A stretch of 52,456 nucleotides of DNA. Source: a virus. Shown in pieces: positions 9,820 to 52,456 of the stretch. Location of the stretch: positions 1 to 52,456 of IMG/VR virus record IMGVR_UViG_3300034082_002361; one strand, given 5' to 3'. A program made the position numbers and the translations under genes. Each line of letters opens with the position of its first letter. The first letter of the stretch is position 1. The notes beneath the pieces are model-generated. The model searched no databases, was not told where the DNA came from, and saw only the letters and a list, made by a program, of their open reading frames with translations.

Positions 9820-9820
9820 A

Positions 9821-17478: not shown

Positions 17479-18177
17479 ATGATCACTCCAAGATTTAACT
17501 ACGTTCCACTAGCAAGAGAAACACTAGAGGGCAAGCGTCATTACGCACTGCCTGATGGTAGCCGTGTGCCCAGTGTCACAACCATATTAGAAAAAACCAA
17601 ACCTGCAGAAGCGCGGCAGGCACTACAAGAGTGGCGCAATAGAGTGGGTACAGAACGTGCCCAGCAGATTACCACAGAAGCTGCCAATCGTGGAACACGC
17701 ATGCACACCTATCTTGAGCGTTATGTGAAAAATGATGACATAGGTGATTTTCCTAGTAACCCATTTGCACAACCTTCGTGGTTCATGGCAGCAAAAGTGA
17801 TACTAGAGGGGCTACACCATGCTGATGAATTTTGGGGTAGCGAAGTACCGTTGTATTACAGTGGGCTATATGCCGGCACTACCGACCTAGTGGGCACCTG
17901 GAAGGGACAACCTGCTATTATGGATTTTAAACAAAGTAACAAGGTCAAGAAGCGTGAATGGATTGACGATTACTTTATACAGTTGGCTGCATATGCAGCA
18001 GCACACAACGAAACACATGGTACACAAATTCGTACAGGGGTAGTGTTAATGTGTGTGAAGCCAGCAACAGAACACGATGATCCAGTGTACCAAGAATTTG
18101 TACTAGAACCTAAAGATTTTGATCACTGGCAAGATCAATGGATGCGTAGAGTAGAACTATACTATCAAACAGCATGA
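17479..18177 (+). CDS. PD-(D/E)XK family exonuclease (RecB-like)
   Basis: 232 residues, starting directly after the iscA stop. The core GTTDLVGTWKGQPAIMDFKQ contains D136 and D149-F-K151, the catalytic PD-(D/E)XK triad, followed by QLAAYAAAHNE, the Q-x-x-x-Y motif of RecB/Cas4-type nucleases. An upstream GTRMHTYLERY supplies the conserved His. There is no cluster-binding cysteine set as in Cas4/AddB. It probably degrades or processes DNA during replication or host DNA breakdown. The next gene starts in an ATGA overlap. Confidence 0.85.
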   Translation: MITPRFNYVPLARETLEGKRHYALPDGSRVPSVTTILEKTKPAEARQALQEWRNRVGTERAQQITTEAANRGTRMHTYLERYVKNDDIGDFPSNPFAQPSWFMAAKVILEGLHHADEFWGSEVPLYYSGLYAGTTDLVGTWKGQPAIMDFKQSNKVKKREWIDDYFIQLAAYAAAHNETHGTQIRTGVVLMCVKPATEHDDPVYQEFVLEPKDFDHWQDQWMRRVELYYQTA

Positions 18178-19358
18178 AAACAAAGTTAACCGAACTGGGT
18201 GCAAATGGTAGCTTTTGTATATTGCCATTCATACATCAGGAAAAAAAATTTAACGGAACTTACCATGTGTGTTGTTATGGCGATCAATTGCAGTCTGATA
18301 ATCCTGCAGATGACTCGTTGGCCAGTTTTAATTCTGATAAAATCAACAGGATCAGATCTGACATGTTGTCTGGCACAAAGCCGGCTGACTGCAATTCCTG
18401 TTATCAACAGGAACACAACAACATTTATAGTCCCAGGCTAAGAGAAAATCACACCTGGACCAATTGGGAATCTACACATACCGCAGTAGAAAAATGCTTT
18501 GATGATTTCACCCATAAAAATACCATCAAACCTATCAGTTATGACCTGAGATACAGCAATACCTGCACTTTAAAGTGCCGTATGTGCAACAGTTCCAGTA
18601 GTAGTGCATTAAATGCAGAATACAAAAAGATACAACATCAATGGCCAGAAAAGTTTTGGACCATTGACAATCCACGAATCAATCATGAAGTTGAATTGCA
18701 TAGTGATGTACAAAAAATATATCTTGCTGGTGGGGAACCACTGGTAGAGCCATTGAATTTAGAATTGCTAGACAAAGTGGCACATCATAATCCAAATTTG
18801 GTTATTCTCATTAACACAAGTTTAAATCATCTAAGTGAAAAATTTGTAACGGTATTAAACAAATTCAAATACTTGACATTGGTAGTGTCAATTGATGGAA
18901 CCCATCAAATCAACGACTATGTACGCAACGGATCAAACTTTGATACAGTGATTAAAAATATTCGTAGCATGGCACACCATGACATGATATTCTCCACATG
19001 TGTGAGCATATACAACGTGTTCAATGTTAAACAATTAGTTACTTTTATTAACAAAGAGTTTCCTAATAGTGGTCATGGCATACACCTGGTCAATGATATT
19101 CCCGAAGTGTTTGTTGACAATGTGCCGCCAGAGCTCAGACCAGGCCTGATTCAGCAATTAGAAACTTGTCTATTGGAGATTTCAGATTTTTCGGCACAAG
19201 GAATTCACAATATAATTACTACATTAAAACAAAATAATTTTGATCACAATCGTTTTAATGATTTTATCAAATATACTAAAATTTTGGATGAATCGCGCGG
19301 CGAATCAATTATCAATATGGTTCCGGAGTTAGCTAAGTATTTCAATGAACAAAGTTAA
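18174..19358 (+). CDS. Radical SAM protein with twitch-like auxiliary cluster region
   Basis: 394 residues. The radical SAM motif is C131-TLK-C135-RM-C138 (CxxxCxxC), binding the [4Fe-4S] cluster that cleaves S-adenosylmethionine; LAGGEPL is the following SAM-contacting 'GGE' motif. Before the core, C15, C33/C34, C73 and C76 are spaced like an auxiliary cluster (twitch/SPASM-like) placed at the N-terminus. The same layout occurs in the protein at 31244. Substrate unknown; such enzymes often modify peptides or sugars. It overlaps the next radical SAM gene by 14 nt. Confidence 0.85.
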   Translation: MKTKLTELGANGSFCILPFIHQEKKFNGTYHVCCYGDQLQSDNPADDSLASFNSDKINRIRSDMLSGTKPADCNSCYQQEHNNIYSPRLRENHTWTNWESTHTAVEKCFDDFTHKNTIKPISYDLRYSNTCTLKCRMCNSSSSSALNAEYKKIQHQWPEKFWTIDNPRINHEVELHSDVQKIYLAGGEPLVEPLNLELLDKVAHHNPNLVILINTSLNHLSEKFVTVLNKFKYLTLVVSIDGTHQINDYVRNGSNFDTVIKNIRSMAHHDMIFSTCVSIYNVFNVKQLVTFINKEFPNSGHGIHLVNDIPEVFVDNVPPELRPGLIQQLETCLLEISDFSAQGIHNIITTLKQNNFDHNRFNDFIKYTKILDESRGESIINMVPELAKYFNEQS

Positions 19359-20365: not shown

Positions 20366-21739
20366 ATGGCCGTAACACAGATCAGCAGAATACAGCATCG
20401 TAGAGGTTTGCAACAAGACCTGCCCCAGTTGACTACAGCCGAACTTGGCTGGAGCATTGACGAACAACGATTGTTTATTGGAAACGGGACTCTAGAAGAA
20501 CTAGCACCATCAATTGGCGTAACAGAAATACTTACGCAAAAAAACATTGACCGTGGCGACCTAACAAGACTGTTGGGATCATACCAATTTTTTGGTAATG
20601 CTGCTGGCTATGCTGCACAAACTGGCAGTAGTTCACTGAACCCAACATCTCGCAGCATTCAGGCCAAGTTGGATGATATTGTGAATGTTAGAGATTTTGG
20701 TGCTGTTGGCGATGGTACTACCAACGACACTGATGCAATTAATCGAGCACTTACACAAATTTACAAAACTCCCAATCAGGAAACTGGCCTGCTGCCACGC
20801 AGAACTATATATTTTCCTGGCGGCACATATATAACATCAAACACAATTCAAGTTCCCCCTAACGCCAGACTGGTTGGTGACGGAATTAACAGCACCAGGA
20901 TTCAATTGACACAAGGCAACAAGAAAGTTATTGAATTGTGTGATAGCAGGTTCCTGACAGGAGCCAGTATTGGGACAACTGGTGGCATACTGCCAAGTAT
21001 GGTAGAGATACAGCATCTGACCATACACAATTCAAATTTGACTACGTCAGTGCCACTGATCAGTATTGACAGTGCTGCTAACGTAAAAATCAAGGACACG
21101 CTAATATCCAGTAATACATCTGCTGGAACTTATGTTAATCTGGTTGCAGTGAGCTCCACTGTACAACAAACCAGGAACATAGTGATTGATGGATGTATTT
21201 TGGCTCATGGTGGCAATGCTATCACACTAGCAGGTGCCAGTGTTTTAAAATTCCAGGTTTTAAATTCCACATTTGACGACATATCAAATGTCACGGTGGA
21301 TGGCGGATCTGTAAATGGTTATACTGGAATAAACAATTTTCATGGCAATATTGGCGCCGCTGCACGTATGACATCAGCAACATATTGGCACACATACGGT
21401 GAAAACTTTGATAACACTCCTACATTAAATGGAATGTTTTTAGGTAACCTGCAGCGAGGAACAGCAGCAGCAGTTGGGATTGACACCACTGATTCATCAA
21501 TCATGTTGGTAACTGCAAATTCATCTGGCACATTTGATTATGAAATAAGTAGTAGCTCGGCTCGTCGTGTTGGGACCATGATGTTTTCTTCCAATGCTAC
21601 CACAGTTGCGTTTTCTGATGAATTTGCAGAAACTGCTACCAGCTTGTCGGCAAACTTATTTTTAAATGACTTAAATCTCAGATGTTCATTGGCATCAGGC
21701 ACAGCTACTTTTAAATACGCACTTAAAAAATTCAATTAA
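20366..21739 (+). CDS. Tail spike protein with pectate-lyase-like beta helix
   Basis: 457 residues. The N-terminal 60 (QISRIQHRRGLQQDLP, then LGWSIDEQRLFIGNGT) match the short virion-attachment motif of phage fibres. Residues from about 110 contain VRDFGAVGDGTTNDTDAINR, the signature of pectate-lyase-3/glycosyl hydrolase 28-type beta helices used by tail spikes, followed by parallel beta-helix turns (TIYFPGGTYITSNTIQVP, NIVIDGCILAHGGNAI). Some spikes cut host polysaccharide; catalytic residues cannot be named here. Expressed late from its own promoter. Confidence 0.85.
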   Translation: MAVTQISRIQHRRGLQQDLPQLTTAELGWSIDEQRLFIGNGTLEELAPSIGVTEILTQKNIDRGDLTRLLGSYQFFGNAAGYAAQTGSSSLNPTSRSIQAKLDDIVNVRDFGAVGDGTTNDTDAINRALTQIYKTPNQETGLLPRRTIYFPGGTYITSNTIQVPPNARLVGDGINSTRIQLTQGNKKVIELCDSRFLTGASIGTTGGILPSMVEIQHLTIHNSNLTTSVPLISIDSAANVKIKDTLISSNTSAGTYVNLVAVSSTVQQTRNIVIDGCILAHGGNAITLAGASVLKFQVLNSTFDDISNVTVDGGSVNGYTGINNFHGNIGAAARMTSATYWHTYGENFDNTPTLNGMFLGNLQRGTAAAVGIDTTDSSIMLVTANSSGTFDYEISSSSARRVGTMMFSSNATTVAFSDEFAETATSLSANLFLNDLNLRCSLASGTATFKYALKKFN

Positions 21740-25254: not shown

Positions 25255-26382
25255 ATGAGTGTATTCAATATTAATAATAAAACAGATCATACCAAAGCCT
25301 TGGCGTTCTTGGATGAATCTGGTGCGGCACCAGTACAGCGTTATGATGTATTAAAATATAGACAGTTTGACAAACTGACAGACAAGCAGTTGGGATTCTT
25401 TTGGAGACCCGAGGAAGTAGATGTACTTCGTGATGCCAAAGATTTCAAGGAGTTGACGGAACATGAACAGCATATCTTTACAAGCAATCTTAAACGTCAA
25501 ATACTTTTGGATAGCGTTCAAGGTCGTAGTCCCAATCTTGCTTTTCTTCCTCTTGCTACCATACCTGAACTCGAGACATGGATCCAGACTTGGAGTTTCA
25601 ATGAAACCATACATAGCCGTAGCTATACTCATATCATACGCAACGTCTATGCTAATCCTAGTATCGTGTTTGACGAGCTGACAGAGATCCCGGAGATTGT
25701 TGATTGTGCTACAGATATCAGCAAGTATTATGACGATCTAATTGACTATGCTGGTTACTACAAACTGTTGGGTTATGGTGTTCATGAAGTCAATGGTAAA
25801 ACAGTCACCATTGACAGATACGAGTTAAAAAAGAAATTGTGGATATGTTTAAACAGTGTCAACGCACTAGAAGGTATTAGATTCTATGTCAGCTTTGCTT
25901 GTAGTTGGGCATTTGCTGAGTTGAAAAAGATGGAAGGCAATGCTAAAATCATCAAGTTGATTGCTCGTGACGAAAATGTACACCTGGGATCCACGCAAAC
26001 CTTGCTAAAATTACTACCCCAGGATGATCCTGATTATATCTTGATTAGAGAAGAAACTCGTGCAGAATGTGAAGCAATGTTCTTGGCAGCAGCAGCACAG
26101 GAAAAAGCCTGGGCACACTACTTGTTCAAAGATGGCAGCATGATTGGCCTGAATGAAGTGTTATTGGGCCAATATGTAGATTGGTTGACCTGCAAACGTA
26201 TGGCAGCAGTGGGATTAAATTGTCATATCAAAACAGGATCAAATCCTTTACCATGGACACAAAAATGGATTGCTGGCGCCGAAGTTCAGGTGGCACCGCA
26301 AGAGACAGAAATTTCAAGTTACGTGATTGGTGGCACCAAACAAGACGTGGATGGCAATACATTCAAGGGATTTAGTTTGTAA
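25255..26382 (+). CDS. nrdB: Class Ia ribonucleotide reductase, beta subunit
   Basis: 375 residues, as in E. coli NrdB (376). It houses the diiron-tyrosyl radical. Iron ligands and radical site are clear: D86 (RQILLDSVQGRSP), E117 and H120 (SFNETIHSRSYTH), radical Y124, and later ARDENVHLG with the final Glu and His ligands. The C-terminus APQETEISSYVIGG leads to FKGFSL, the peptide that docks to NrdA. The sequence is very close to enterobacterial NrdB, consistent with a proteobacterial origin. Confidence 0.96.
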   Translation: MSVFNINNKTDHTKALAFLDESGAAPVQRYDVLKYRQFDKLTDKQLGFFWRPEEVDVLRDAKDFKELTEHEQHIFTSNLKRQILLDSVQGRSPNLAFLPLATIPELETWIQTWSFNETIHSRSYTHIIRNVYANPSIVFDELTEIPEIVDCATDISKYYDDLIDYAGYYKLLGYGVHEVNGKTVTIDRYELKKKLWICLNSVNALEGIRFYVSFACSWAFAELKKMEGNAKIIKLIARDENVHLGSTQTLLKLLPQDDPDYILIREETRAECEAMFLAAAAQEKAWAHYLFKDGSMIGLNEVLLGQYVDWLTCKRMAAVGLNCHIKTGSNPLPWTQKWIAGAEVQVAPQETEISSYVIGGTKQDVDGNTFKGFSL

Positions 26383-26386
26383 CGGT

Positions 26387-27715
26387 ATGAACATATTTAC
26401 TCCAAACAAATATCAATTGTCCACGAAGATATTCGATGCAATTTTTAGATCAACAAGTAAATCCAGAGTAAAATTTGATATTGTTTATGATTTAAATCTA
26501 GTTCTGGACGAACCTTACAGAATTTGTTTAGTGGAATACTGGACTTCGGATCCCATCAAGATCATAAGAGACTGGTCGGAACAATATCAAAATTTAGATT
26601 TTGGTATATTTGATCTGGTAATTGTTGTTGATTCTTTTTGCAGGAACAATACTGAATTAATACAATCTTTTGTAGAAACAAGAGGAATAAAAAATTATTT
26701 GTTACTGACCGAAGACAGTGTGTCAGACATTGATGAAGCAGTATTTTATCCTTATTATTTACTATATGTGATTGACTATAATGAATTCAGCGAATCAAAT
26801 CATTATTTAGAGAAATCTTTTTTATTTGATGCCTTGTTGGGATCACCTAAAACACATAGATCATATGTGATGAAAAGATTCCAAGACAACGAAAAATTGC
26901 TGGCTCAATCAGTTGTTACGTATAGAGACAGTTTTAGATCTGCTGAAGAAAATTCAACAGGCTATGTACAGTCTTGCCGGCACTTGTCGCTGACAGAGAT
27001 AAGGATCGACGAGATTTGGTTTCCCTATACATCCGCAGGTTATCAATTGGTTGGAAAATACGACACAGTCAATTATAACCCAGCAGCTGAATTAAGCAAA
27101 CAAACTGTCACGGCATCATTAAAGGCCTCAATTGGCGATATTTTTAAATGGGCTGATAGTTACAATTACGATATATCAAAACACGAGTTAACACAGCTGA
27201 CAGATTCTATCATAATTGCAGTAATGTCTAGCCAGCTTGCACTACACAGTGTAGTGCAAGCTTGTGTAGCACACCTGGTACCGTGGAAAATCTACGCCAA
27301 CACCTGGTACAGCATTATCACAGAAACTGAGTGTGAAAATTTTGTTTCAGTGACTGAAAAGATAGGAAGAGTATTTTTCGCCAAGCGGGTGTTTATATTG
27401 TTCGGCGCTGTAGGTTCACTGACATTGCTTAAACAACTGGGATTCAGAACATTTGATTGCGTGATTGATGAAACGTACGACACGGTGCAAGATCCTGTGA
27501 TTCGATGGAAAATGGCATTTGACCAAGTGGAAAAATTAGCCGAACTTGATCCTAGAAAAATTTATGACCTGACTGAAGAGATCAGAGAACATAACTTTAA
27601 TCGACTGCGTGAGTATTACACGGAAACGCAAAACAAAGTTCAAGATTTAATATGGTGTCATATGGCATATGGACGCAATGCTGTCAGAATGATGCAGGCT
27701 TTGCATAAAAAGTAA
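26387..27715 (+). CDS. Glycosyltransferase-like phage protein, paralog 1
   Basis: 442 residues from ATG 26387. The C-terminal part reads WYSIITETE, VTEKIGRVFFAKRVFILFG, GSLTLLKQLGFRTFDCVIDE, a pattern also present in the protein encoded at 49114-50337 (LTEKIFKPIVLERPFILLS, YLKSYGFKTFDRWIDESYD). This pattern resembles the nucleotide-sugar-binding C-terminal half of GT10-like (fucosyltransferase/exostosin-type) enzymes. The N-terminal half is not recognised. AT-rich, 4 nt after nrdB. A perfect 29-bp palindrome lies inside the gene (27234-27262). Glycosyltransferase activity is inferred. Confidence 0.5.
   Translation: MNIFTPNKYQLSTKIFDAIFRSTSKSRVKFDIVYDLNLVLDEPYRICLVEYWTSDPIKIIRDWSEQYQNLDFGIFDLVIVVDSFCRNNTELIQSFVETRGIKNYLLLTEDSVSDIDEAVFYPYYLLYVIDYNEFSESNHYLEKSFLFDALLGSPKTHRSYVMKRFQDNEKLLAQSVVTYRDSFRSAEENSTGYVQSCRHLSLTEIRIDEIWFPYTSAGYQLVGKYDTVNYNPAAELSKQTVTASLKASIGDIFKWADSYNYDISKHELTQLTDSIIIAVMSSQLALHSVVQACVAHLVPWKIYANTWYSIITETECENFVSVTEKIGRVFFAKRVFILFGAVGSLTLLKQLGFRTFDCVIDETYDTVQDPVIRWKMAFDQVEKLAELDPRKIYDLTEEIREHNFNRLREYYTETQNKVQDLIWCHMAYGRNAVRMMQALHKK
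27234..27262. repeat. Perfect 14-bp inverted repeat inside a gene
   Basis: AGCTTGCACTACAC and its exact reverse complement GTGTAGTGCAAGCT flank one base. It lies in the coding region of the glycosyltransferase-like gene (peptide SSQLALHSVVQACVAHL). By chance such arms at a given spacing are expected about 0.0002 times in a random sequence of this length. Confidence 0.9.
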
Positions 27716-31243: not shown

Positions 31244-32542
31244 ATGATTATTCCATACTCTAATACGTTTGATAAAACTACGGACAGGCACAAATGGGCA
31301 AATGATAACCAACATATTTGTTTATTGCCGTATACCAGCCTGCAATATTTTCATTCATCAAAAACAGTGAGTCCGTGTTGCAACCTAGAAAAACCCAAGT
31401 TGGGGGATTTTTTAACACCCATACACAAACTTAAACAAGCAATAGAATCTGGCAACACTTACGACAATTGTAAAGCTTGTTATCAATGTGAAGATGCAGG
31501 CAAGATCAGCGAAAGAACTAGGTATTTGATTGAATTAAACGACCAGCAGCTGGATAACTTAATTCATAAACAGAAAATTGATCAGGAATTCCATATTCAT
31601 TGTACATTGTCAAATCTTTGTAATATGGCCTGCCGTAGTTGTAATTCTACCACCAGTAGTTTATTTTCCAAAATTGACATTGGTTACGAAATATTAGTAG
31701 ATACCATGTCTGATAATACAGCGTATTGGCAATCCCTTCTTGACAGCATTTCTCGAGAAACCCAAATTCACGACTCTGTAAATCTAGTTATATCAGGTGG
31801 CGAAGGAATGGTACAATCTGATTTTCATAAAATTGTATCTTGGTTGATTGGGACTGGCATTAGCAAGCAGATTACCTTGACAATTAATACCAATGGATCA
31901 ATTGACGATGATCGGTTGTTTACGGATCTCTGCAGCAATTTTAAAAGAGTGTCGTTGGCTATCAGCGTTGACAGCATATATGAAAATTATCATTATGTAA
32001 GGTGGCCTGCAAACTGGAACAAAATTCATAAAAATTTAAATTCTTTTGTGAGATATCAAAAGACTTTTGAAAATTTTAATTTTTTTCTAACACCAGTTTG
32101 GTCAATTAATAATATTTTTTATTTGCCAGCCTGGGTAAAGTTTTTTGAATCTTTTGCTGCCGAGCACAAAATAGACATCACCGCATACGATACGCCACTG
32201 TGGCAACCTGAGTGGCTAGATGTTCAAAATTTGCCAGTGTACATTAAACACATTCTACTAGAAAAAATTTCTCTAGTATTATCTAATCAATGGCTAATGC
32301 AGAACAAAACCTTTCACGCCAATATCACAAATCTAGTAAACTTATGTATGCAACCAACTACCAATCAATCACTGGTACATTGGAAGGAATATCTGACCTA
32401 TAGTGCCAAATGGGATGTGCGTACCAATACCAATCTAGCAGAGCACAATGTGTTATTATATAATATTATGAATCAACAAGATAAAGATTTATTTCTATCG
32501 CTCAAAAATCATGCCAAGTCAAGATACGCATTTGTTAGTTAA
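31244..32542 (+). CDS. Radical SAM protein with N-terminal twitch-like cysteines
   Basis: 432 residues. Radical SAM motif NLCNMACRSC (C126, C130, C133) and a GGEGMV loop. Before it are C26, C45/C46, C76 and C79, the same pattern as in the protein at 18174 (C15, C33/C34, C73, C76), so the two are paralogs. AT-rich. Its 3' end overlaps the convergent radical SAM gene by 8 nt. Substrate unknown. Confidence 0.85.
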   Translation: MIIPYSNTFDKTTDRHKWANDNQHICLLPYTSLQYFHSSKTVSPCCNLEKPKLGDFLTPIHKLKQAIESGNTYDNCKACYQCEDAGKISERTRYLIELNDQQLDNLIHKQKIDQEFHIHCTLSNLCNMACRSCNSTTSSLFSKIDIGYEILVDTMSDNTAYWQSLLDSISRETQIHDSVNLVISGGEGMVQSDFHKIVSWLIGTGISKQITLTINTNGSIDDDRLFTDLCSNFKRVSLAISVDSIYENYHYVRWPANWNKIHKNLNSFVRYQKTFENFNFFLTPVWSINNIFYLPAWVKFFESFAAEHKIDITAYDTPLWQPEWLDVQNLPVYIKHILLEKISLVLSNQWLMQNKTFHANITNLVNLCMQPTTNQSLVHWKEYLTYSAKWDVRTNTNLAEHNVLLYNIMNQQDKDLFLSLKNHAKSRYAFVS

Positions 32543-34550
32543 ACCAGGATCCGTGTCCTTGCCAAACTAGATCAATGTTGTAGTCTGATCTGACATCGGA
32601 CTCTGGCCACCACGGTGCATGTGGGTTGTCTGGGCAGGTAAATTTTACTACACAATTGGCTGTCCATTGCCCGTCATTGTTAATTTTAAAATTATATGTG
32701 GCGGCAAATTGATCAGCCAACCTATTTCCGTATTCGTTTAGGTCCCATTCGGGATCAAAAGTCACAGTCATTTCCATGGCTTTTTTGGCTCTGGATCTCC
32801 ATAAAGTACGAATTAATGGCCAAACTTCGTTGACCACAGTCTTAAGAAATACACAATCTAGTGTAGCATCTTTAATGATCTCATAATCAAATTCTTCATA
32901 CGGGATATCTAGATATTGGCCAATGACTGATATATTAGTTTCAAATTTTACATCATAGGTCTTGCTTAACCGAGAATTTTTATCGCCATCAAAATGAAAG
33001 CCCGGCATCTGTTCAATAAAAATATTAAAACTTTTGAATCGTATCAACCTATGAATTTTGGTATTGCCCAGGTCCTTGGTGGCCCAGCCCATGCAGAAAT
33101 ATTTTGGATGTACATTGTAAAAGTCAGGGTCGTCCTGCACTCGTCCAGGACCAATATTCATTGTACCACGGGCCATTGACGTTAGGTTACAGTTTTGTAT
33201 GCGCCAGGCCAGTGTCATTGTTTTGGCAAAGTCCACGGATTCTTCGTTGAGATAGCACAGCATCCAGTTGGTCTGAGCACCAATGTGTACTGACGCACCG
33301 TCGCGCAAGTTCTTTTCCACTTCAGCTATGGTTACGTTTTTACGCATGGCATCAAGCACTCGCTGGCTTCCACTCTCTATTCCGTAGTTCAATGCCATGC
33401 AACCACTGGCAGCCAGATCTTTGTAGTACTCTAGGTCCATGCGCTCGTCGCAGCGAGCATACCCCTCCCACTTGATCTTTAGCCCACGTTCAACCACACC
33501 CAGTGCAAATGCACGAAGTTCGTTGATGTTTCCGTTTACCAAGCTGTCAATAAACCAAAACACGTTGGTGCCATAGGTACGGTATTGATGTTCGACTTCT
33601 TCTAGTATAAACGGCGCCTGTCTACTGCGATACTTCCAGTAGTGTGTTTCCTGACAGAATGTGCATTTGGCCACACAACCACGACTCAGTTCTGAACTGA
33701 TGGCATTGGGTATCATGTAAGCATTGACGTCAAGATCTGAATAGTCCGGAAACGGCAGCTGATCTAGGTTGATCCTTTTTGTTTTGTCTGCGTTGTATTG
33801 ATATTCAGTCAATGGGATTCCATTTTCAATATCGTCTAATAATTGCAGCAGCAATTCCTCACCTTCACCTTTGACCACATGATCAAACTCAGGAAACGGC
33901 TCAGGGTTCCACTGGATATGTGATCCGCCGGCAATAATTTTTGTATTGGGTAAACGTTCTCTAATTTTTCTTGCCAGCCAAAGAGTAGGAAACACGTTGG
34001 TGTAGTACAAACTGAAACCCACAACGTCTGGCTTGAGCTTGATTATTTTTTCAAGGTATTCTTCAAGCACAGGCTCCACATGCCGACTCAGTCTGCGTTC
34101 GTACATGTCGTCAAGCCAAAGATAGTCCCTGGACCCATGTCCTTCATAAGGATCTTCGTCTATTACCTTTTTGAGTTTGTGCCAGGTATCCACGTTCCAA
34201 TCAAACACACTAGTCCGATATCCTGCTGCTCTAGTGACAGCAGCCAATCTTGCAATATTGTACGGAGCAAAGAACACTGCCCATTTGGGCATGAGAATCA
34301 ATGCAATGTGTGTGTGCCGGGTGACATTTTCAATTTTGACCACGGACAAGTTCTTTTGTGCAGCAGGCATGGCATATTTGAGCATGCCTTTGGCAGTGGC
34401 CAGATATTTGTCTTCGGGCATGTCAGGACTGTTAAATTCTTGGTGTAACTCTGCCAACGATTTTGCCATACCGGAATCTACCGGATTGCGCAAGGTTTCT
34501 TGTATGTCTTTGTTTGTACGAATCTGAATAGGAATTATTTTGCCGCTCAT
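32535..34550 (-). CDS. B12-binding-domain radical SAM protein
   Basis: 671 residues on the minus strand. Residues about 80-240 form a cobalamin-binding-like Rossmann domain (PYNIARLAAVTRAAG, VVGFSLYYTNVFPTLWLAR, KIIAGGSHIQWNPEPF, VVKGEGEELL); the DxHxxG histidine motif is not seen, so base-off binding is uncertain. The radical SAM motif is SRGCVAKCTFCQ (C292, C296, C299), followed by YGIESGSQRVL, typical of this class. Members methylate or rearrange unactivated carbons in natural products, lipids or sugars. A late-type box 5 nt before its ATG suggests late leaderless expression. Substrate unknown. Confidence 0.88.
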   Translation of the reverse strand: MSGKIIPIQIRTNKDIQETLRNPVDSGMAKSLAELHQEFNSPDMPEDKYLATAKGMLKYAMPAAQKNLSVVKIENVTRHTHIALILMPKWAVFFAPYNIARLAAVTRAAGYRTSVFDWNVDTWHKLKKVIDEDPYEGHGSRDYLWLDDMYERRLSRHVEPVLEEYLEKIIKLKPDVVGFSLYYTNVFPTLWLARKIRERLPNTKIIAGGSHIQWNPEPFPEFDHVVKGEGEELLLQLLDDIENGIPLTEYQYNADKTKRINLDQLPFPDYSDLDVNAYMIPNAISSELSRGCVAKCTFCQETHYWKYRSRQAPFILEEVEHQYRTYGTNVFWFIDSLVNGNINELRAFALGVVERGLKIKWEGYARCDERMDLEYYKDLAASGCMALNYGIESGSQRVLDAMRKNVTIAEVEKNLRDGASVHIGAQTNWMLCYLNEESVDFAKTMTLAWRIQNCNLTSMARGTMNIGPGRVQDDPDFYNVHPKYFCMGWATKDLGNTKIHRLIRFKSFNIFIEQMPGFHFDGDKNSRLSKTYDVKFETNISVIGQYLDIPYEEFDYEIIKDATLDCVFLKTVVNEVWPLIRTLWRSRAKKAMEMTVTFDPEWDLNEYGNRLADQFAATYNFKINNDGQWTANCVVKFTCPDNPHAPWWPESDVRSDYNIDLVWQGHGSWFN

Positions 34551-41061: not shown

Positions 41062-42948
41062 ATGTCTAACCGTATTATTGGCATAGATCTCGGAACTACA
41101 AATAGCTGCGTAGCAGTAATCGAAAATGGCCAACCTAAAGTAATTGAAAATTCAGAAGGCGCACGTACTACGCCCAGCGTGGTTGCCTACACTGCAGAAG
41201 AAATTATTGTCGGCGCTGGTGCAAAGCGTCAAGCAGTTACAAATCCAAAAAGTACTATCTATGCTGCCAAGCGTCTAATTGGACGTAAATTCAAAGAAGA
41301 GGCAGTTCAAAAAGACATTGGCCTTATGCCTTATACCATTATTGAAAGTAGTAATGGTGATGCATGGGTCTCAACCGGGGACAAAGAACTGGCCCCGCCC
41401 CAGATCTCAGCAGAAGTCATTCGTAAAATGAAAAAGACTGCCGAGGACTATTTGGGACGTGAAGTAACACAGGCAGTTATCACTGTGCCTGCTTACTTCA
41501 ATGACAGTCAACGCCAAGCAACCAAAGATGCTGGCGCAATTGCAGGACTAGAAGTGCTGCGGATTATCAATGAGCCGACCGCAGCGGCCTTGGCATATGG
41601 AATCGATAAAAATGAAAAAGTTGATCGCAAGATCGCTGTGTACGATTTGGGTGGTGGTACCTTTGATGTTAGTATCATTGATATTGCTAACGTGGATGGT
41701 GATAAGCAATTTGAAGTACTTTCCACCAATGGTGATACATTCCTAGGTGGCGAAGACTTTGACCAACGCATTATGGATTACTTGATTGACCAGTTTAAAA
41801 AAGAAACTGGAGTTGATCTAGCCCTAGACGTTATGGCCCTGCAACGACTCAAAGATGCAGCAGAACGTACCAAGATTGAACTCAGCAGCAGCACACAAAC
41901 AGATGTAAACTTACCTTACATCACAGCAGATGCCACAGGTCCCAAGCACATGAACATCAAGTTGACCCGTTCCAAACTGGAAGGCCTGGTTGAAGAACTG
42001 ATTCAACGCAGTATTGAACCGTGCCGTGTGGCCATGCGTGATGCAGGTTGTGTGCCCGGCGACATTGATGAAGTTATCTTGGTAGGCGGTATGACACGCA
42101 TGCCCAAGGTACAGGAAGCAGTTGAACAATTATTTGGACGGGCACCACGACGTGATGTCAATCCTGATGAAGCAGTAGCGGTTGGCGCAGCAGTACAAGG
42201 TGCTGTGTTGGGTGGTAGCCGTAATGACGTACTACTCCTTGATGTAACCCCACTAAGCCTGGGAATCGAAACCATGGGCGGAGTGATGACCAAACTAATC
42301 CAAAAGAACACCACTATTCCTACCAAGCATAGTCAAGTGTTTTCCACAGCAGAAGATAACCAGCCTGCTGTGACAATCAAAGTTTGTCAAGGAGAACGTG
42401 AACTTGTGCAATATAACAAACTGTTAGGTGAATTCAACTTGGAAGGAATTGCACCTGCTCGACGCGGAACGCCGCAGATTGAAGTTTCGTTGGATGTTGA
42501 TGCCAATGGTATTCTCAAAGTAAGTGCTCGTGATAAAAGTACTGGCAAAGAAAACAAGATCACTATCAAATCAGATTCAGGTCTAAGCCAAGAGCAGATT
42601 GACGAAATGATTCGCGATGCTGAAGCCAATGCTGATGCAGACGCCAAACAGCGCGAATTGATTGAGGCACGTAATCAAGCAGATGCAATTATTCACAAAG
42701 TTAAAACTGATCTTGCCGAGGTTGACGGCCAACTTACCGAGGACCAGACGAAACAAATTAATGACAAAATAACGGAACTACAAGAGACGATTGCAGGCAC
42801 AGACAAGGAAGTGATCACTACCAAGATATCAGAATTGTTTGTGGCCGCCAATGCAATCAATGAAGCAAAAGCAGCAGCCACATCACAGTCTACTACGCCG
42901 GCAGCAGATGACACGGTGGTTGATGCTGAGTTTAAAGAAACAAAGTAA
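41062..42948 (+). CDS. dnaK: Hsp70 chaperone DnaK, full length
   Basis: 628 residues (E. coli DnaK 638). ATP-dependent folding chaperone. The nucleotide-binding domain shows [34 protein letters not shown] and [20 protein letters not shown]; the interdomain linker and substrate-binding domain begin around [19 protein letters not shown] and include the [19 protein letters not shown] strand; the helical lid and acidic tail end [13 protein letters not shown]. All parts look intact and no frameshift is seen. No dnaJ or grpE is in the window, so host cochaperones would be needed. A full-length DnaK is unusual for a phage. Neighbouring hsp20 and clpS suggest a proteostasis module. Confidence 0.97.
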
Positions 42949-43026: not shown

Positions 43027-43464
43027 ATGACAACATATATTACAACCTTTGATTTACCTACTATCCATCGCCACGCTGTGGGATTTGATAGACTATTTAA
43101 CGAACTGGGACGCACTTTTGCCAACAGTAAGGTAGATGGTAATTACCCTCCGCACAACATTGTGCAAATTGATGAAACACATTATGCCATTCAATTGGCA
43201 GTGGCTGGGTTCGCTGAGGATGAACTTGATATTGAATTCAAGGACAATGTGCTCACTGTAAAAGGTGAACAGCATCAACAGGACGAATACACTTATCATT
43301 ATCGTGGTATCAGTTCTCGCGCATTTACTCGTGCATTTCCATTGGCTGAACACATGGAAGTCAAAGGTGCCACTGTGATAAACGGTATTTTGGCAGTCAG
43401 CATTGAGCACATTGTGCCCGACGAACAAAAACCCAAGAAAATTGCTATTACGTTTGCAAAGTAA
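43027..43464 (+). CDS. Small heat-shock protein, Hsp20/IbpA family
   Basis: 145 residues, as for IbpA. The N-terminus FDLPTIHRHAVGFDRLFNEL matches IbpA-type openings; the alpha-crystallin domain includes HNIVQIDETHYAIQLAVAGF, EDELDIEFKDNVLTVKGEQ and the HYRGISSRAFTRAFPLAEH segment, ending with a conserved NGILAVSIEHIVP strand. It binds unfolding proteins and passes them to DnaK. It lies 78 nt after dnaK with a strong AAAGGAGAAA site and a shared leader motif, so the two are probably co-regulated. Confidence 0.93.
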   Translation: MTTYITTFDLPTIHRHAVGFDRLFNELGRTFANSKVDGNYPPHNIVQIDETHYAIQLAVAGFAEDELDIEFKDNVLTVKGEQHQQDEYTYHYRGISSRAFTRAFPLAEHMEVKGATVINGILAVSIEHIVPDEQKPKKIAITFAK

Positions 43465-43525: not shown

Positions 43526-43834
43526 ATGAGTAAAACGGACGTTATTGTAAAACCTCGAGTGCAAACTAAAACGGACATCCAACCTCCAAGTTTGTTTAAT
43601 GTGATCTATCTCAACGACAATGTTACCACGACAGAATTTGTGATAGAAAGTTTAAAAAATATTTTTCATCACGACGAAGAAACTGCTACAGAAATTACTC
43701 AACGCATACATGAACAAGGAAGCAGTGTGGTTAGCACCCTTCCTTATGAAATTGCAGAACAAAAAGGTGTCGAGGCCACAATGCTGGCTCGAACCAATGG
43801 CTTTCCCCTTAACGTCAAACTAGAACCAGCTTAA
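43526..43834 (+). CDS. clpS: ClpS adaptor protein homolog
   Basis: 102 residues, normal for ClpS. It delivers N-degron substrates to ClpAP. The core FNVIYLNDNVTTTEFVIESL corresponds to the VILVNDDYTPMEFV region; N30, D31, T34 and H62 (RIHEQGSSVV) match the N-end-rule pocket, but the gatekeeper Met (E. coli M40) is Thr36 here and the second Asp is N32, so substrate choice may differ. The C-terminus NGFPLNVKLEPA matches the family. Own promoter with a structured 5' end. The cytidylyltransferase-like gene follows after 3 nt. Confidence 0.9.
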   Translation: MSKTDVIVKPRVQTKTDIQPPSLFNVIYLNDNVTTTEFVIESLKNIFHHDEETATEITQRIHEQGSSVVSTLPYEIAEQKGVEATMLARTNGFPLNVKLEPA

Positions 43835-47249: not shown

Positions 47250-47702
47250 ATGAAATCCTTTTTATTAACAGCGTTGCTGTGTTTTTCCGTCACAGCCACA
47301 GCCAAAGAATTTAGATTGCAGTTTTCCGATCCCACCCAAGTTGTAGTCAATGACAGCGACTGGGTCAAGGTATCACACAACGACATATACGATCTTTATA
47401 TATCTCAGGATGCCATTGGTACCAACGAACAGTCGCCCTATATACACTCCATGGTGCTGTTTCATGACACACCTGGCACCACATTCAACAACATAATTGG
47501 TCCAGTCAAGCGTATTTTTACATTTGGTAACCTTGATTGCCGGCAAGGGGTACTGACACTATTGAACGACTGGTTTGTTGACATAACCAATCAAGTAGTG
47601 TATACTCAGAGTCATGCACCGGGAGAGTATCTTACTGAGGTACTAACTAATCACACACCACGGAACGATGCGTACAATGCAATCTGCAAAAAAGGTACCT
47701 AA
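47250..47702 (+). CDS. Small secreted protein
   Basis: 150 residues from ATG 47250. MKSFLLTALLCFSVTATA is a signal peptide; the mature protein is beta-rich (KEFRLQFSDPTQVVVNDSDW) with two cysteines (NLDCRQGVLT, NAICKKGT) that could form a disulfide in the periplasm. No domain recognised. It overlaps the 2OG oxygenase gene by TAATG. Confidence 0.6.
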   Translation: MKSFLLTALLCFSVTATAKEFRLQFSDPTQVVVNDSDWVKVSHNDIYDLYISQDAIGTNEQSPYIHSMVLFHDTPGTTFNNIIGPVKRIFTFGNLDCRQGVLTLLNDWFVDITNQVVYTQSHAPGEYLTEVLTNHTPRNDAYNAICKKGT

Positions 47703-48361
47703 TGAAAATTGATACACGCACTGTCAAGAATTTTTTATCTGATGAAGAATTAGATATTATTGAACAACATGTTTTGGCAACAGATAATGTGCATTTAAAC
47801 TATAATCCTGACAGAGAAAATGACAGTCAAGAAGTTTTTTCCGGAACATACTATTTGTTTGATTACTACGAAGAAAAGAACAAGATAGTTAAAGAAATAT
47901 TACAATCAAAGTTTGAAACACAGTTTGGAAAAGATTTACACATACAACAAATTCATATATTTGATTCCGTTGATCCATACAATATTCACAGTGATGTAGA
48001 CAGCGGCGGAGAATTTTTGCCAGGACATGTACATGCATGGACTTTTATAATTCCTTTATTTGATGTTGACAGTCACACTATCGTGTTCAATGAGGGCAGT
48101 GAAACAAAACAACCACAACACTACATTGAAGCAACACCACCCGGCGAGTCCATGTTAATTGATGACCCGACTTATAAAAAATACTTGTCACATACTCCAC
48201 ATGACTGGTACAGATGGCTATCTATAGAAGATATCTTTAAGTGGGAGAGAGGTGCTTTATTTGCCGCCAGCAGATTTAAGTTTCATACTAGCGACAATTT
48301 TTTAGCCAATGGTGTTAAAAGTAAACGTGCAATAATTGCTTGGACTAGTTTGCCATCTTAA
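47702..48361 (+). CDS. 2-oxoglutarate/Fe(II) dioxygenase-like protein
   Basis: 219 residues. The iron-binding triad is H96-x-D98 (NIHSDVDSGG) and H195 (KFHTSDNF), and R209 (KSKRAIIAWTS) fits the 2-oxoglutarate carboxylate ligand, with HAWTFIIPLF as the intervening strand. These enzymes hydroxylate proteins, nucleobases or small molecules. Substrate unknown. Coupled to the secreted protein upstream and the DD-peptidase downstream by TAATG overlaps. Confidence 0.75.
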   Translation: MKIDTRTVKNFLSDEELDIIEQHVLATDNVHLNYNPDRENDSQEVFSGTYYLFDYYEEKNKIVKEILQSKFETQFGKDLHIQQIHIFDSVDPYNIHSDVDSGGEFLPGHVHAWTFIIPLFDVDSHTIVFNEGSETKQPQHYIEATPPGESMLIDDPTYKKYLSHTPHDWYRWLSIEDIFKWERGALFAASRFKFHTSDNFLANGVKSKRAIIAWTSLPS

Positions 48362-49110
48362 TGATACAAAAATTTTTAACATTGGCGATTTTAGTAATCG
48401 CGTGTGGTTCCTCTGCCCACGCAGAAATAAAAGCCAAGTCCTGGTTGATAGCCGATGGCGACGGCAACCTACTAGAACAAGAGAATATCAACGTGGTACA
48501 GCCAATTGCGTCAATTACCAAATTAATGACAGTGATGGTGGTGCTAGACAGCAACGACAATTTGAACGAAATTGTAAAATTAAAAAAGTTCAAAGGAGCC
48601 AATCTAACAAGGCATCAGCTGATCAATCTAGCAATCATTCATTCAGACAACGCTGCTGCTGACATGTTGTGCAAAGCGTACCGTAGAGGCTATGCTGCAT
48701 GCATTGAAGATATGAATCACAAGGCCAAAATACTAGGAATGATTCAAACAGAGTTTCGTGACAGTACAGGACTGGATAATAGAAATGTTAGCAGTGCTGC
48801 GGAATTGATCAAGCTCTTGCAAGCAGCAGAACGTTATCCAGAGATAGTAAATGCCAGCAACCAAACTGTAGTTGAACTGGTCAAGAAGAAAAAAGGCAGA
48901 TGGCGATTTAATAATACCAATCCGCTGGTGGCAAAATACAATGTCATTGTGAGTAAAACAGGATATGTGCGAGCCAGTGGCGGGTGTTTGGTCATGAGTG
49001 CCTATGTGCAAGGGAAGAAAAAATTATTTGTGGTACTTAACAGTAAAACTACTCGCACACGAATACATGACATGGAGACTTTGATTTTATCTGCAATTGG
49101 CCAGAATTGA
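48361..49110 (+). CDS. Penicillin-binding-type DD-endopeptidase/carboxypeptidase (PbpG-like)
   Basis: 249 residues. A signal peptide (about 21 residues, ending SSAHA) sends it to the periplasm. The three active-site motifs of S11 serine DD-peptidases are present: S51-ITK54 (SxxK), S95-D-N97 (SxN) and K199-T-G (KTG). Family members trim or cut peptidoglycan crosslinks. PbpG of E. coli is about 310 residues, so this is a compact form without a membrane-anchoring tail. A phage-encoded enzyme of this class is unusual; it may assist lysis or wall remodelling. It ends 3 bp before the convergent gene. Confidence 0.9.
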   Translation: MIQKFLTLAILVIACGSSAHAEIKAKSWLIADGDGNLLEQENINVVQPIASITKLMTVMVVLDSNDNLNEIVKLKKFKGANLTRHQLINLAIIHSDNAAADMLCKAYRRGYAACIEDMNHKAKILGMIQTEFRDSTGLDNRNVSSAAELIKLLQAAERYPEIVNASNQTVVELVKKKKGRWRFNNTNPLVAKYNVIVSKTGYVRASGGCLVMSAYVQGKKKLFVVLNSKTTRTRIHDMETLILSAIGQN

Positions 49111-49113
49111 CAT

Positions 49114-50337
49114 TCACTTCAGTAGAATTTTTTTAACTTGGCTAAGATTAATATTGTCTGATAGAATTTGAAATTTTTTGTCTGTGGTTAACTTAGACTG
49201 TTCTGTACACATTCTAAAATTATCAATCATTTCGTCAACTATGATATTTTTAAAATTGCCATAAAAATGTTCTTTATTAAATTTAAGTATTTCATGCATT
49301 TCTTGGTACATGATCAATAGTTCTGACATTGACTTGCGACACAGTTTCTCTATTTCGTCTACTACTTTTTGGAGTCTGACGTCAGGATCCATTTCGTTAT
49401 CGTAGCTTTCGTCGATCCAACGATCAAAAGTTTTAAACCCGTAACTTTTAAGATATGACAGATTTCCTTGAGTTGATAGTAATATAAAAGGTCTTTCAAG
49501 CACTATTGGTTTAAATATTTTTTCAGTCAGATGAAGCTTTTGTTCATAGTATACTGTTTCCGTTACTATATGCCACATACTTTTTAAACTTTGGTCTGTT
49601 TTTTTGTTGCCCGGTGCGCAATTAAGTATAGGATTACTGCTGTTATCCAACGGTGATACACTTGCATGAAATAAATTGTTATTTTTTGTGTGTTTATCTT
49701 CAATTGACAGGTACAGGTGTTTGTAAATGATGGTTCTGGCAGATTTGCTCAACAATGAATTGTTGTTAAAAATCTCTTGTTTAACAAGATTTCTAGATAA
49801 TAAGTCGGCTTTGACATGTCCATATTGGGTTAATTTTCTGCTGTTTAATTCAGCTAACAAATGCAATCTGTAGTTTCTTTTTTTTGTTAATATATGATTA
49901 AATGTAATAAATACTTTATCAAATTCTGTTGTAGTGCAATTAAAATATTCGAAGTCTCTAAACCAATCTAGAGAAACAAATCCGTGATAAAAAAAGTACC
50001 AATTGTTACATCCTAGTGTGTCTAACATACTGTTTTTCAGCTGACTTTTTTCGGAATTAGCAATAATGTGTACCTTATTCAAATTTTGAGCAGCGTTGGG
50101 AAATCTTTGGTAATACCAATTAATAAATTCGTTAGAATCATCATTGTTTATAGGTTCTTCGTGCCACCAAAAACAGTGCCCATTAATCTCATTATTCTTT
50201 GGCCATGGAGAATCAGAATTTCTACAAAGATCACGGATCTTTGTAGAGTAGTGAGGATCAAATTCTATAGATACAATTCTATTAGGATAGATAAGAAGTT
50301 CGTTAATTAATTTTAGAAAATAACCCGAGGATATCAT
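49114..50337 (-). CDS. Glycosyltransferase-like phage protein, paralog 2
   Basis: 407 residues on the minus strand, AT-rich. The C-terminal half contains MWHIVTETVYYEQKLHLTEK, IFKPIVLERPFILLSTQG and YLKSYGFKTFDRWIDESYD, shared with the protein at 26387. This pattern is like the nucleotide-sugar-binding half of GT10/exostosin-like enzymes. The N-terminal half differs between the two. Its start codon is 3 bp from that of the divergent UDP-sugar dehydrogenase gene. A perfect inverted repeat lies near its 5' end (50221-50247). Confidence 0.5.
   Translation of the reverse strand: MISSGYFLKLINELLIYPNRIVSIEFDPHYSTKIRDLCRNSDSPWPKNNEINGHCFWWHEEPINNDDSNEFINWYYQRFPNAAQNLNKVHIIANSEKSQLKNSMLDTLGCNNWYFFYHGFVSLDWFRDFEYFNCTTTEFDKVFITFNHILTKKRNYRLHLLAELNSRKLTQYGHVKADLLSRNLVKQEIFNNNSLLSKSARTIIYKHLYLSIEDKHTKNNNLFHASVSPLDNSSNPILNCAPGNKKTDQSLKSMWHIVTETVYYEQKLHLTEKIFKPIVLERPFILLSTQGNLSYLKSYGFKTFDRWIDESYDNEMDPDVRLQKVVDEIEKLCRKSMSELLIMYQEMHEILKFNKEHFYGNFKNIIVDEMIDNFRMCTEQSKLTTDKKFQILSDNINLSQVKKILLK
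50221..50247. repeat. Perfect 12-bp inverted repeat inside a gene
   Basis: TCTACAAAGATC and GATCTTTGTAGA around ACG, inside the 5' part of the minus-strand glycosyltransferase-like gene. Its paralog at 26387 carries an unrelated, even longer palindrome. Confidence 0.85.
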
Positions 50338-50340
50338 AGT

Positions 50341-51567
50341 ATGAAAGTTGGTTTTATAGGCTTAGGTAAATTAGGATTATCATGCGCAGAAGTAATGCAA
50401 AAAGCATATGATGTAACTGGTTATGATATTTACCCAAGATCAAGTACACAAATTAAAATATCTGATAGTCTGCGCGGTGCAGTTGTTAACAAAGATATTA
50501 TTTTTGTAGCAGTACAAACTCCACACGATCCTGCATATGACGGCAGTCAACCAATTACTCATTTACCCAACAAAGACTTTGATTATTCTATAGTTAAAGA
50601 CGTGCTAAAACAAATTGATATTTGGGCCGGTCCTGAGCAACTAGTAGTTCTTATTAGTACTGTGCTGCCAGGCACGGTTCGTAGGGAACTGCGTGAGTGC
50701 TTGACACATGCACGTTTCATTTATAATCCGTACCTTATTGCCATGGGCAGTGTTGAATGGGACATGGTCAACCCTGAAATGGTCATAATTGGTACCAAGG
50801 ACGGTGACCAAACTGGTGATGCAAAGTTGCTCATTGATTTTTACCAGCCATTGATGGAAAATGATCCACGTTATGTTGTTGGTACCTGGGACGAAGCAGA
50901 GTCAATCAAGATATTTTATAACACATTTATTAGCACAAAAATTGCACTAGTCAACATGATTCAAGATGTAGCAATGAAGAACGGCAACATCAATGTAGAT
51001 GTGGTCACTGACGCATTGTCACACAGCACCACTCGTATCATGAGCAGCAAGTACATGACAGCAGGCATGGGTGATGCCGGACCCTGTCATCCTAGAGACA
51101 ACATTGCACTGCGTTGGTTGGCTGAAAACTTGAGTTTAGGGTATGATATATTTGATACCATTATGAATGCCAGGGAAGTACAAGCAAAAAATCTAGCACG
51201 TTTTTTATTTCAAAAACAAAAACAGTACAACTTGCCCATCTATATACTGGGCAAGTCATACAAACCTGATGTGGATATACTGGACGGAAGCTACAGTTTA
51301 CTAATTGGGCACTATTTAGAAACCATGCAGGCCAAGTTTTATTACATAGATCCATTAACTGGTGATGCGCCACCGTTTGACAACGTGCCGGTAATTGCTT
51401 TTTTAGCACACAACAGAAACATAACTTACGGATACACCGGAGAGCAACAGGAACAAGAACTATATGTTGAGCTTGATTCCGGCAGTGTAATTGTTGATCC
51501 TTGGAGACAATACACCACACAAAAAGATTATAAGGTGATACATTATGGCAACACACGACTCGTTTAA
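50341..51567 (+). CDS. UDP-glucose/GDP-mannose dehydrogenase family protein
   Basis: 408 residues, normal for UDP-sugar dehydrogenases. They oxidise the C6 alcohol of a nucleotide sugar to an acid in two NAD-dependent steps. The NAD-binding loop is GFIGLGKLGLSCAE; the catalytic lysine is in ISTK200 and the thioester cysteine is C249 in DAGPCHPRDNIAL with D253. This differs slightly from the common GGSCFPKD version, so the substrate may be unusual. A C-terminal UDP-binding domain is present (GKSYKPDVDILDGSYSLLIG). The product, a uronic acid nucleotide, fits a glycan pathway with its neighbours. It overlaps the 2OG-type gene by 23 nt. Confidence 0.85.
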   Translation: MKVGFIGLGKLGLSCAEVMQKAYDVTGYDIYPRSSTQIKISDSLRGAVVNKDIIFVAVQTPHDPAYDGSQPITHLPNKDFDYSIVKDVLKQIDIWAGPEQLVVLISTVLPGTVRRELRECLTHARFIYNPYLIAMGSVEWDMVNPEMVIIGTKDGDQTGDAKLLIDFYQPLMENDPRYVVGTWDEAESIKIFYNTFISTKIALVNMIQDVAMKNGNINVDVVTDALSHSTTRIMSSKYMTAGMGDAGPCHPRDNIALRWLAENLSLGYDIFDTIMNAREVQAKNLARFLFQKQKQYNLPIYILGKSYKPDVDILDGSYSLLIGHYLETMQAKFYYIDPLTGDAPPFDNVPVIAFLAHNRNITYGYTGEQQEQELYVELDSGSVIVDPWRQYTTQKDYKVIHYGNTRLV

Positions 51568-52060
51568 TATTGCCCCATTCTGGGACGATGAATACAAGAA
51601 CTTGGCATACAAAAAAGAACAATTCAATGATCCTGGCACCATGATTGAGTGGGAGGATCAAGGGTTCCGTGGCCCATTTGGAGGCCACATGTGCGACATG
51701 CGCGATCCGCAACCGGCTTGGAATTCGCAGTTTGTGGACTTCTTTGCCACATATGAAAAGTGGAAAAACATAGGAACCAGTTACTATCGCATGGATGCTG
51801 GCAGTATGCTTCCAGAGCATGTGGACACATATCGTAGATATATTGATCTGTTTGATCTTGCAGGCAAAGAGAATACCATACGTAGAGCAGTGGTGTTCCT
51901 GGATCACTGGCATTCAGGACACTATGTTGAATGTAACAAACAAGGTTATACCAATTGGGTCAAAGGATTTTGTCTGACATGGGATTGGGATAGCCCACAT
52001 ATTGCTGCCAATCTAGGAACAGTTCCTAGGTATACCTTGCAAATCACCGGGCATGTATGA
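51545..52060 (+). CDS. 2-oxoglutarate dioxygenase/aspartyl-hydroxylase-like protein
   Basis: 171 residues. MLPEHVDTYRRY gives H92-x-D94, SPHIAANLG gives H152, and PRYTLQITG gives R162, the iron triad and 2-oxoglutarate arginine of this superfamily, similar to aspartyl/asparaginyl beta-hydroxylases. WNS..FV and HWHSGHYVE lie between. Start at ATG 51545, 23 nt inside the dehydrogenase gene, and ATGA overlap with the amidinotransferase, so the three genes form one operon. It probably hydroxylates a pathway intermediate. Confidence 0.65.
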   Translation: MATHDSFNIAPFWDDEYKNLAYKKEQFNDPGTMIEWEDQGFRGPFGGHMCDMRDPQPAWNSQFVDFFATYEKWKNIGTSYYRMDAGSMLPEHVDTYRRYIDLFDLAGKENTIRRAVVFLDHWHSGHYVECNKQGYTNWVKGFCLTWDWDSPHIAANLGTVPRYTLQITGHV

Positions 52061-52456
52061 TATCATCGTTCAATGAGTGGGATCAGTTAAAAGAAATTGT
52101 AGTAGGCACAGCAGACTTTGCCAATTGGCCCACAGATGATCCTGTGTTTGCTCAAGAAAGTGAAAAAACCACCTGGACAGAAACTCCAGTACCCAGTGGT
52201 CCAGTGCCGGACTGGATCATTGACGAAGCCAACCAAGACCTTGATATACTGGCAGATACATTGGAAAAACTTGGGGTGATTGTGCATAGACCAATGCCAA
52301 TTGATTTTCAAGCTCGTGATGGCATGTACAACTATTGCCCACGTGACAGGCTGTTGGTTTATGGCAACACCGTGGTGGATCCGGCCATGATGTATCCTTG
52401 CAGAGACATGGAGTCAGAAGCATTAGAACAGGTTATATATCGTGCTGATACAGTAT
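52057..52456 (+). CDS. Second amidinotransferase (GATM-like), cut by window end
   Basis: 133 visible residues; the gene continues beyond the window. MISSFNEWDQLKEIVVGTAD is the typical opening of glycine/inosamine-phosphate amidinotransferases, and ARDGMYNYCPRDRLLVYGNT matches the following conserved strand. The catalytic His and Cys would lie downstream. It is only distantly similar to the amidinotransferase at 9821. It starts in an ATGA overlap with the oxygenase-like gene. Confidence 0.85.
   Translation, partial: MISSFNEWDQLKEIVVGTADFANWPTDDPVFAQESEKTTWTETPVPSGPVPDWIIDEANQDLDILADTLEKLGVIVHRPMPIDFQARDGMYNYCPRDRLLVYGNTVVDPAMMYPCRDMESEALEQVIYRADTV

Follow-up and report, generated by a model that had tools for sequence, protein, structure and literature searches.

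The closest described counterpart of the amidinotransferase considered here is StrB1, the L-arginine:inosamine-phosphate amidinotransferase of streptomycin biosynthesis, a pathway in which a DegT-family aminotransferase step precedes StrB1. This study concerns the right end of the 52,456-base virus record IMGVR_UViG_3300034082_002361 (the window, analysed over its whole length), in all likelihood a fragment and probably derived from a jumbo phage, in which the replicative helicase is closest to those of PA5oct-type jumbo phages (49%). At this end, a UDP-sugar 6-dehydrogenase (UGDH), a small Fe(II)/2-oxoglutarate (2OG) oxygenase (OX) and a StrB1-type amidinotransferase (AT2) form a tightly conserved three-gene set, here called the cassette, that recurs in many very large phages of fresh and marine waters. 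AT2 shares full-length similarity and the same catalytic Asp/His/Asp/Cys residues with StrB1, but the phage protein is ~40 residues shorter, falls in a viral clade of its own (support 100/99) and has genes for UGDH and a 2OG oxygenase, in place of those for inositol enzymes, as its partners. The Ugd-ArnA-ArnB route to UDP-Ara4N and the streptidine route of streptomycin serve as analogies, not as systems to which the cassette belongs.

Cyanophage sugar clusters, StrB1-type enzymes and a Campylobacter-phage amidinotransferase with radical SAM proteins are already known singly. In the cyanophage and pelagiphage sugar clusters (Bellamy, HTVC008M), a related UGDH (59% and 49%, respectively) lies beside NadE-like, carbamoyltransferase, methyltransferase and glycosyltransferase genes, but no OX or amidinotransferase is annotated and the glycosyltransferases differ. 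The isolated cyanophage Synechococcus phage S-SCSM2R carries an OX-AT2 pair (26% and 37%) among glycosyltransferases, a DegT/AHBA-type gene and a radical SAM gene, with UGDH not adjacent but ~35 kb from the pair; no description of this cluster as a pathway was found in the open-licence literature searched. Campylobacter phages CP220 and CPt10 carry an amidinotransferase with five radical SAM genes, called an interchangeable module in 2010 (PMC2853527); this amidinotransferase is 22-24% identical to AT2, and UGDH and OX were not reported in the module. Additionally, FolE, QueD and QueE, known from phage 7-deazaguanine DNA modification (DpdA, DpdA2; PMC6884629), and a gene that is TGT-like by motif share genomes with the cassette, although the described systems are without sugar and amidino enzymes. 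Likewise, the open-licence literature searched yielded no description of UGDH-OX-AT2 as a fixed unit, of how widely it is spread, or of its association with DegT, epimerase and 7-deazaguanine genes.

Conservation of the UGDH-OX-AT2 gene set

A first-pass annotation of the window had placed a glycosyltransferase-like protein, a UDP-sugar dehydrogenase, a 2OG oxygenase-like protein and a second, divergent amidinotransferase together at the right end, and all four genes were confirmed there. UGDH (50341-51567), OX (51545-52060) and the 5' part of AT2 (52057-52456) lie on the plus strand, and the gene for a putative GT-B glycosyltransferase, GT0 (49114-50337, minus strand), is divergent from the cassette. 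The reading frames overlap, the OX start (51545) lying before the UGDH stop (51567) and the AT2 start (52057) before the OX stop (52060). A contig (L001, IMG/VR 3300042888_002025) that matches the window over 10,116 identical bases extends past position 52456, as the annotation had proposed following, and completes AT2 (L001:9717-10640, equivalent to 52057-52980; 307 amino acids (aa)). Downstream of AT2, the genes encode in order a protein of 243 aa, one of 419 aa that by reading resembles a tail fibre, and a twitch-domain radical SAM protein.

AT2 relatives are encoded on at least 271 IMG/VR stretches. Across 104 distinct AT2 proteins, OX is directly upstream in 93 and UGDH at position -2 in 86, with a divergent GT0 at position -3 in 75/99. 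According to tblastn, UGDH and OX both lie within 2.5 kb of AT2 in all 76 AT2-fetched loci with sufficient upstream sequence, and AT2 is present in 58 of 69 UGDH-fetched loci, each sample consisting of the best 80 matches, near-copies included. Seven AT2 loci that seemed to be without UGDH in a count based on open reading frames (ORFs) were rejected by tblastn as ORF-picking artefacts. The gene order is the same at AT2 identities from 100% to ~40%, and start/stop contacts between cassette genes are seen in most loci. Because the sampled loci share descent and include near-copies, these counts measure conservation, not independent origins. UGDH, OX and AT2 are also under purifying selection, with dN/dS far below 1 where dS was computable (UGDH ~0.03-0.1, OX 0.05-0.2, AT2 ~0.06), dS being mostly saturated.

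The neighbours of the cassette recur as well. A tail-fibre-like gene, assigned by reading only, lies two positions downstream of AT2 in 56/94 loci. AT2, DegT, OX and UGDH stand all together in three marine loci (L066, L068, L076), and DegT adjoins OX and AT2 in L066, L068, L071 and L076. The link to radical SAM proteins drawn in the first-pass annotation was independently supported for a B12-binding radical SAM enzyme of the window (32535-34550, minus strand; PF02310, PF04055): in three contigs of marine origin (L066, L076, L078), its 43% identical relatives lie between SGNH, GT0 and AT2 genes. A Bdellovibrionota contig holds OX, an amidinotransferase and a GT0 relative. Two further contigs, L204 (Chloroflexi NAT137 metagenome-assembled genome, MAG) and L189 (Bacteroidetes UBA11400 MAG), resemble mis-binned phage pieces.

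In large contigs, DegT (PF01041) was found in 16/20 cassette contigs, including 13/13 of at least 190 kb; it lies inside the cassette in marine relatives and elsewhere in the genome in large freshwater contigs. Cassette contigs carry one to six amidinotransferases, and those of at least 190 kb (190-364 kb) carry 3-14 GT0 genes and 7-19 twitch-domain radical SAM genes. A second cluster, present in six contigs, comprises a NAD epimerase, a full-length DegT, two GT0 genes, a gene like that of the first amidinotransferase of the window (AT1, described below), a NodU-type carbamoyltransferase and radical SAM genes. The initiating sugar-phosphate transferase (PF02397) and the Wzx-type flippase (PF01943) were each found in 0/13 contigs while controls were positive, and a capsule or O-antigen polysaccharide export cluster was therefore rejected.

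Beside these main subjects, alternating radical SAM/GT0 arrays were seen in L257-L262 and contigs G001-G016, a large jumbo-phage tailoring locus for which no description was found. A D-Ala-D-Ala carboxypeptidase-like protein (48361-49110; Peptidase_S11 1e-36) is conserved directly before GT0 in many relatives (66 loci), and a second HxD-type oxygenase-like protein (47702-48361), with no clear family match, occurs in 16 loci near the cassette.

Enzyme assignments and the kinship of AT2 with StrB1

UGDH matches Pfam (UDPG_MGDP_dh, 4.9e-16; PF00984/PF03721) and PHROG 9148 (2.3e-98) and carries GxGxxG, Cys and Lys/Asn motifs, the catalytic-Cys motif being present in 105/105 family members. The Rossmann motif, the catalytic Cys and the central-domain Pfam match are those of a UDP-sugar 6-dehydrogenase; against the subfamily TIGR03026 (NDP-sugDHase), the score was 136.6 bits (E 9e-40), below the cut-off of 189.8. 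For OX, no family was found in sequence databases. Residues H92, D94, H152 and R162 are invariant across its 37 relatives, and a Foldseek search of PDB with its AlphaFold2 model (pLDDT 93) returned the 2OG hydroxylases P4H and AspH (E 4e-6), placing the HxD...H triad and Arg of an Fe(II)/2OG oxygenase on a double-stranded beta-helix.

GT0 has no Pfam, PHROG or NCBIfam match and no sequence relatives among annotated phages; profile searches of PDB sequences gave nothing useful for GT0 or OX. Residues R157, E260, E272 and K273 are invariant in the GT0 family, and the best Foldseek matches of the AlphaFold2 model (pLDDT 90) are the GT-B proteins WaaG (E 1.6e-3), TarM and glycogen synthase, at a weak TM of ~0.3. 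The window encodes a second family member (26327-27715, plus strand; A2 profile match 2.7e-47).

The best structure-database match of AT2 is StrB1 (PDB 1bwd; phmmer E 1e-68), with L-arginine:glycine amidinotransferase (AGAT) at ~1e-28. The similarity extends over the pentein fold, and the catalytic residues D145, H191, D193 and C296 are invariant in 41 sequences, as expected of the StrB1/AGAT family; Pfam ADI (PF02274) gave no match for AT2 in the window, where AT2 ends early. The lid before the catalytic His reads FYAGV in AT2 and LYAST in StrB1, and the 300-flap of human AGAT is DPNPM (PMC4887976). AT2 thus appears to have a StrB1-like lid without the AGAT 300-flap, and its neighbours are predicted sugar enzymes; a creatine-type reading of AT2 was disfavoured by lid and neighbours alike.

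In a 56-row tree, AT2 falls in an essentially viral clade (100/99) near bacterial StrB1-like enzymes, one member coming from a MAG contig that resembles a phage piece. The first amidinotransferase of the window, AT1 (9821-10972, plus strand), was assigned from matches to PDB amidinotransferases (E ~1e-6), the D/H/D/C motif residues and the tree, in which it is placed in a separate viral clade. AT1 and AT2 are 24% identical over 197 residues and by these comparisons belong to different ancient clades, in agreement with the divergence that the first-pass annotation had noted.

In bacteria of several phyla (L192-L196, L199, L205), a StrB1-like gene is followed by one for a protein of 1400-1700 aa, AMP-ligase-like in L194, and is often preceded by genes of ~340 aa; this is another uncharacterised amidinotransferase locus.

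A guanidino-sugar as the candidate product

The first-pass annotation had suggested that the phage makes or remodels a modified, perhaps guanidinylated, glycan or nucleotide. Gene content, gene order, catalytic residues, conservation and purifying selection support the existence of a conserved functional unit that joins a StrB1-type amidinotransferase to sugar enzymes; the product and target named in that suggestion stay at the level of a proposal. Since the StrB1-type enzyme always has nucleotide-sugar enzymes as neighbours, and in most cases a putative glycosyltransferase too, a guanidinylated glycan is the best reading. A probability of roughly 0.45 is given to the proposal that a guanidino-sugar is produced by the cassette and then attached to an acceptor of the phage or its host. 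Going by the known chemistry of the enzyme families, from which the reactions, their order, the product and the acceptor are all drawn, UGDH would convert a UDP-sugar to its uronate by oxidation at C6, OX would hydroxylate or oxidise a ring carbon, and the DegT aminotransferase would place an amine on the sugar. AT2 would then move the amidino group of L-arginine to this amine via C296, as StrB1 does on scyllo-inosamine phosphate, and the GT-B-like GT0 would pass the completed sugar on to its acceptor, for which a virion surface protein (e.g., the tail fibre) or a host surface glycan is the most likely candidate.

Several observations weigh against this proposal. GT0 is a putative glycosyltransferase by weak fold similarity, and the 243-aa and 419-aa proteins downstream of AT2 have no family or database match. 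The window showed no DegT, but it is a fragment; four contigs of 141-158 kb showed none either. UGDH occurs without AT2 in 11/69 UGDH-fetched loci, so UGDH serves other pathways too, and in some cases the genes close to AT2 and UGDH are 7-deazaguanine genes, not fibre genes.

This last association is the basis of an alternative in which phage DNA carries the guanidino- or amino-sugar: 7-deazaguanine would be inserted by a TGT/DpdA-like enzyme and then hypermodified by the sugar enzymes, for protection from restriction. This alternative is judged unlikely, though it has real weight. Relatives carry the 7-deazaguanine (preQ0) genes and the TGT-like gene, whereas the window fragment has neither. 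A TGT-like family with invariant DSGGFQ and FDCASP motifs is encoded in 12/13 cassette contigs of at least 190 kb, in L071 and in one 149-kb contig, and FolE accompanies it in the same 12 contigs and L071. The operon of the TGT-like gene also holds QueD, QueE, a glycosyltransferase and an epimerase. In L071 the order is TGT-like gene, glycosyltransferase, epimerase, UGDH, OX, DegT, FolE, AT2; between epimerase and FolE, L263 has an AT1-like gene (39% identical to AT1 of the window) and DegT, and L264 has DegT and an OX-like stretch, with QueD/QueE present. QueE lies ~5.5 kb from UGDH in about ten marine loci. This interleaving of sugar enzymes in TGT/FolE/QueD/QueE operons suggests that the same enzymes have been repeatedly recruited to them, and it lends unexpected weight to the nucleotide half of the earlier suggestion.

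However, the whole cassette is inside such an operon in L071 only and is far away from it in large freshwater contigs; in relatives of the window it stands apart from the 7-deazaguanine operon and beside a fibre-like gene, so that DNA is not the first choice of acceptor. The TGT-like label rests on the motifs and one weak colinear alignment with E. coli TGT (E 0.0044), with no detectable sequence match to 9g DpdA and no match in PHROG, Pfam, PADLOC or PDB profile searches, and the 3-14 GT0 and 7-19 radical SAM genes per contig seem too many for base modification. A TET/JBP oxygenase route gave no match, but its control was silent too, so this is not evidence. The specific form in which jumbo phages use the UGDH-OX-DegT-AT2 and TGT-like-FolE-QueD-QueE modules to attach a guanidinylated sugar to their own 7-deazaguanine bases, as a positively charged hypermodification of a so far undescribed kind, is held to be improbable. 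In PA5oct, EST35_0316 (L291:13995-15617), annotated as a hypothetical protein, shares 36% identity with the TGT/DpdA-like family, and QueE and DNA polymerase are encoded close to it; 7-deazaguanine may be present in the DNA of PA5oct-group Pseudomonas jumbo phages.

Still more doubtful is the reading that the product is not a glycan unit but a diffusible compound, either an aminocyclitol-like guanidino natural product or a signalling molecule. The mix of StrB1-type amidinotransferase, DegT, carbamoyltransferase and radical SAM proteins is like that of aminoglycoside assembly, and the lack of a polysaccharide initiating transferase and flippase in 13 contigs fits such a product, but no synthase for inositol or cyclitols was recognised, glycosyltransferase genes are numerous instead, and a secreted metabolite would be of no obvious use to a lytic jumbo phage. 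It is also quite improbable that AT2 has no sugar link and serves arginine metabolism as an auxiliary enzyme (guanidinoacetate/creatine-like or for ornithine supply). Viral creatine biosynthesis genes (GAMT) have been discussed in work on auxiliary metabolic genes in the ocean (PMC11360552) and some amidinotransferases accept several amines (PMC4887976), yet AT2 is StrB1-like rather than AGAT-like and is in fixed linkage to UGDH and OX. Unrelated single-gene insertions lying together by chance, the outcome named in the first-pass annotation as fatal to its suggestion, can be dismissed on synteny, given the 76/76 linkage with UGDH and OX, the overlapping frames, the purifying selection, the order kept to ~40% AT2 identity and no evidence found in their support.

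Other genes of the window and implications

The 8504-10972 operon, which the first-pass annotation had grouped with the right-end genes, proved to be a real conserved unit with an amidinotransferase clade of its own. It opens with the gene for a 164-aa protein (8504-8998, plus strand), followed by a conserved AT1 partner (8929-9819, plus strand) and AT1 itself; the first two genes occur in this order in L224 and L227 as well. From motifs, the partner is a candidate small PLP-dependent aminotransferase, its family having invariant D172 and SxSK200, motifs of a fold-type I PLP enzyme; profile searches did not confirm this, with weak Pfam scores (0.06-0.09) and no PDB match. In L096, L097 and L230-L232, members of the same family are paired with amidinotransferases that are more divergent.

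Two twitch-domain radical SAM proteins are encoded on the plus strand at 18174-19358 (NF033640, 5e-81) and 31244-32542 (NF033640, 4e-57), both above the cut-off. The cytidylyltransferase-like gene at 43838, which had also been counted towards the sugar pathway, is a nucleotidyltransferase conserved near a ClpS-like gene and was not tied specifically to the cassette. In this region, a full-length Hsp70/DnaK (41062-42948; Pfam HSP70 8.5e-254) is followed by an apparent small heat-shock protein (43027-43464) and the ClpS-like adaptor (43526-43834), an unusual chaperone set for a phage. The protein at 20366-21739, with a pectate-lyase-like fold and a major tropism determinant N-terminal domain, is a tail spike candidate.

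Because S-SCSM2R (host Synechococcus WH7803) has been isolated and carries OX-AT2, the module is directly testable. A guanidino group is permanently positive and, on a tail fibre, a host surface or DNA, could therefore alter binding, receptor masking or nuclease resistance. If the proposal is true, a fixed guanidine-to-sugar module would represent a chemistry new to phages and perhaps also to glycans other than those of antibiotics.

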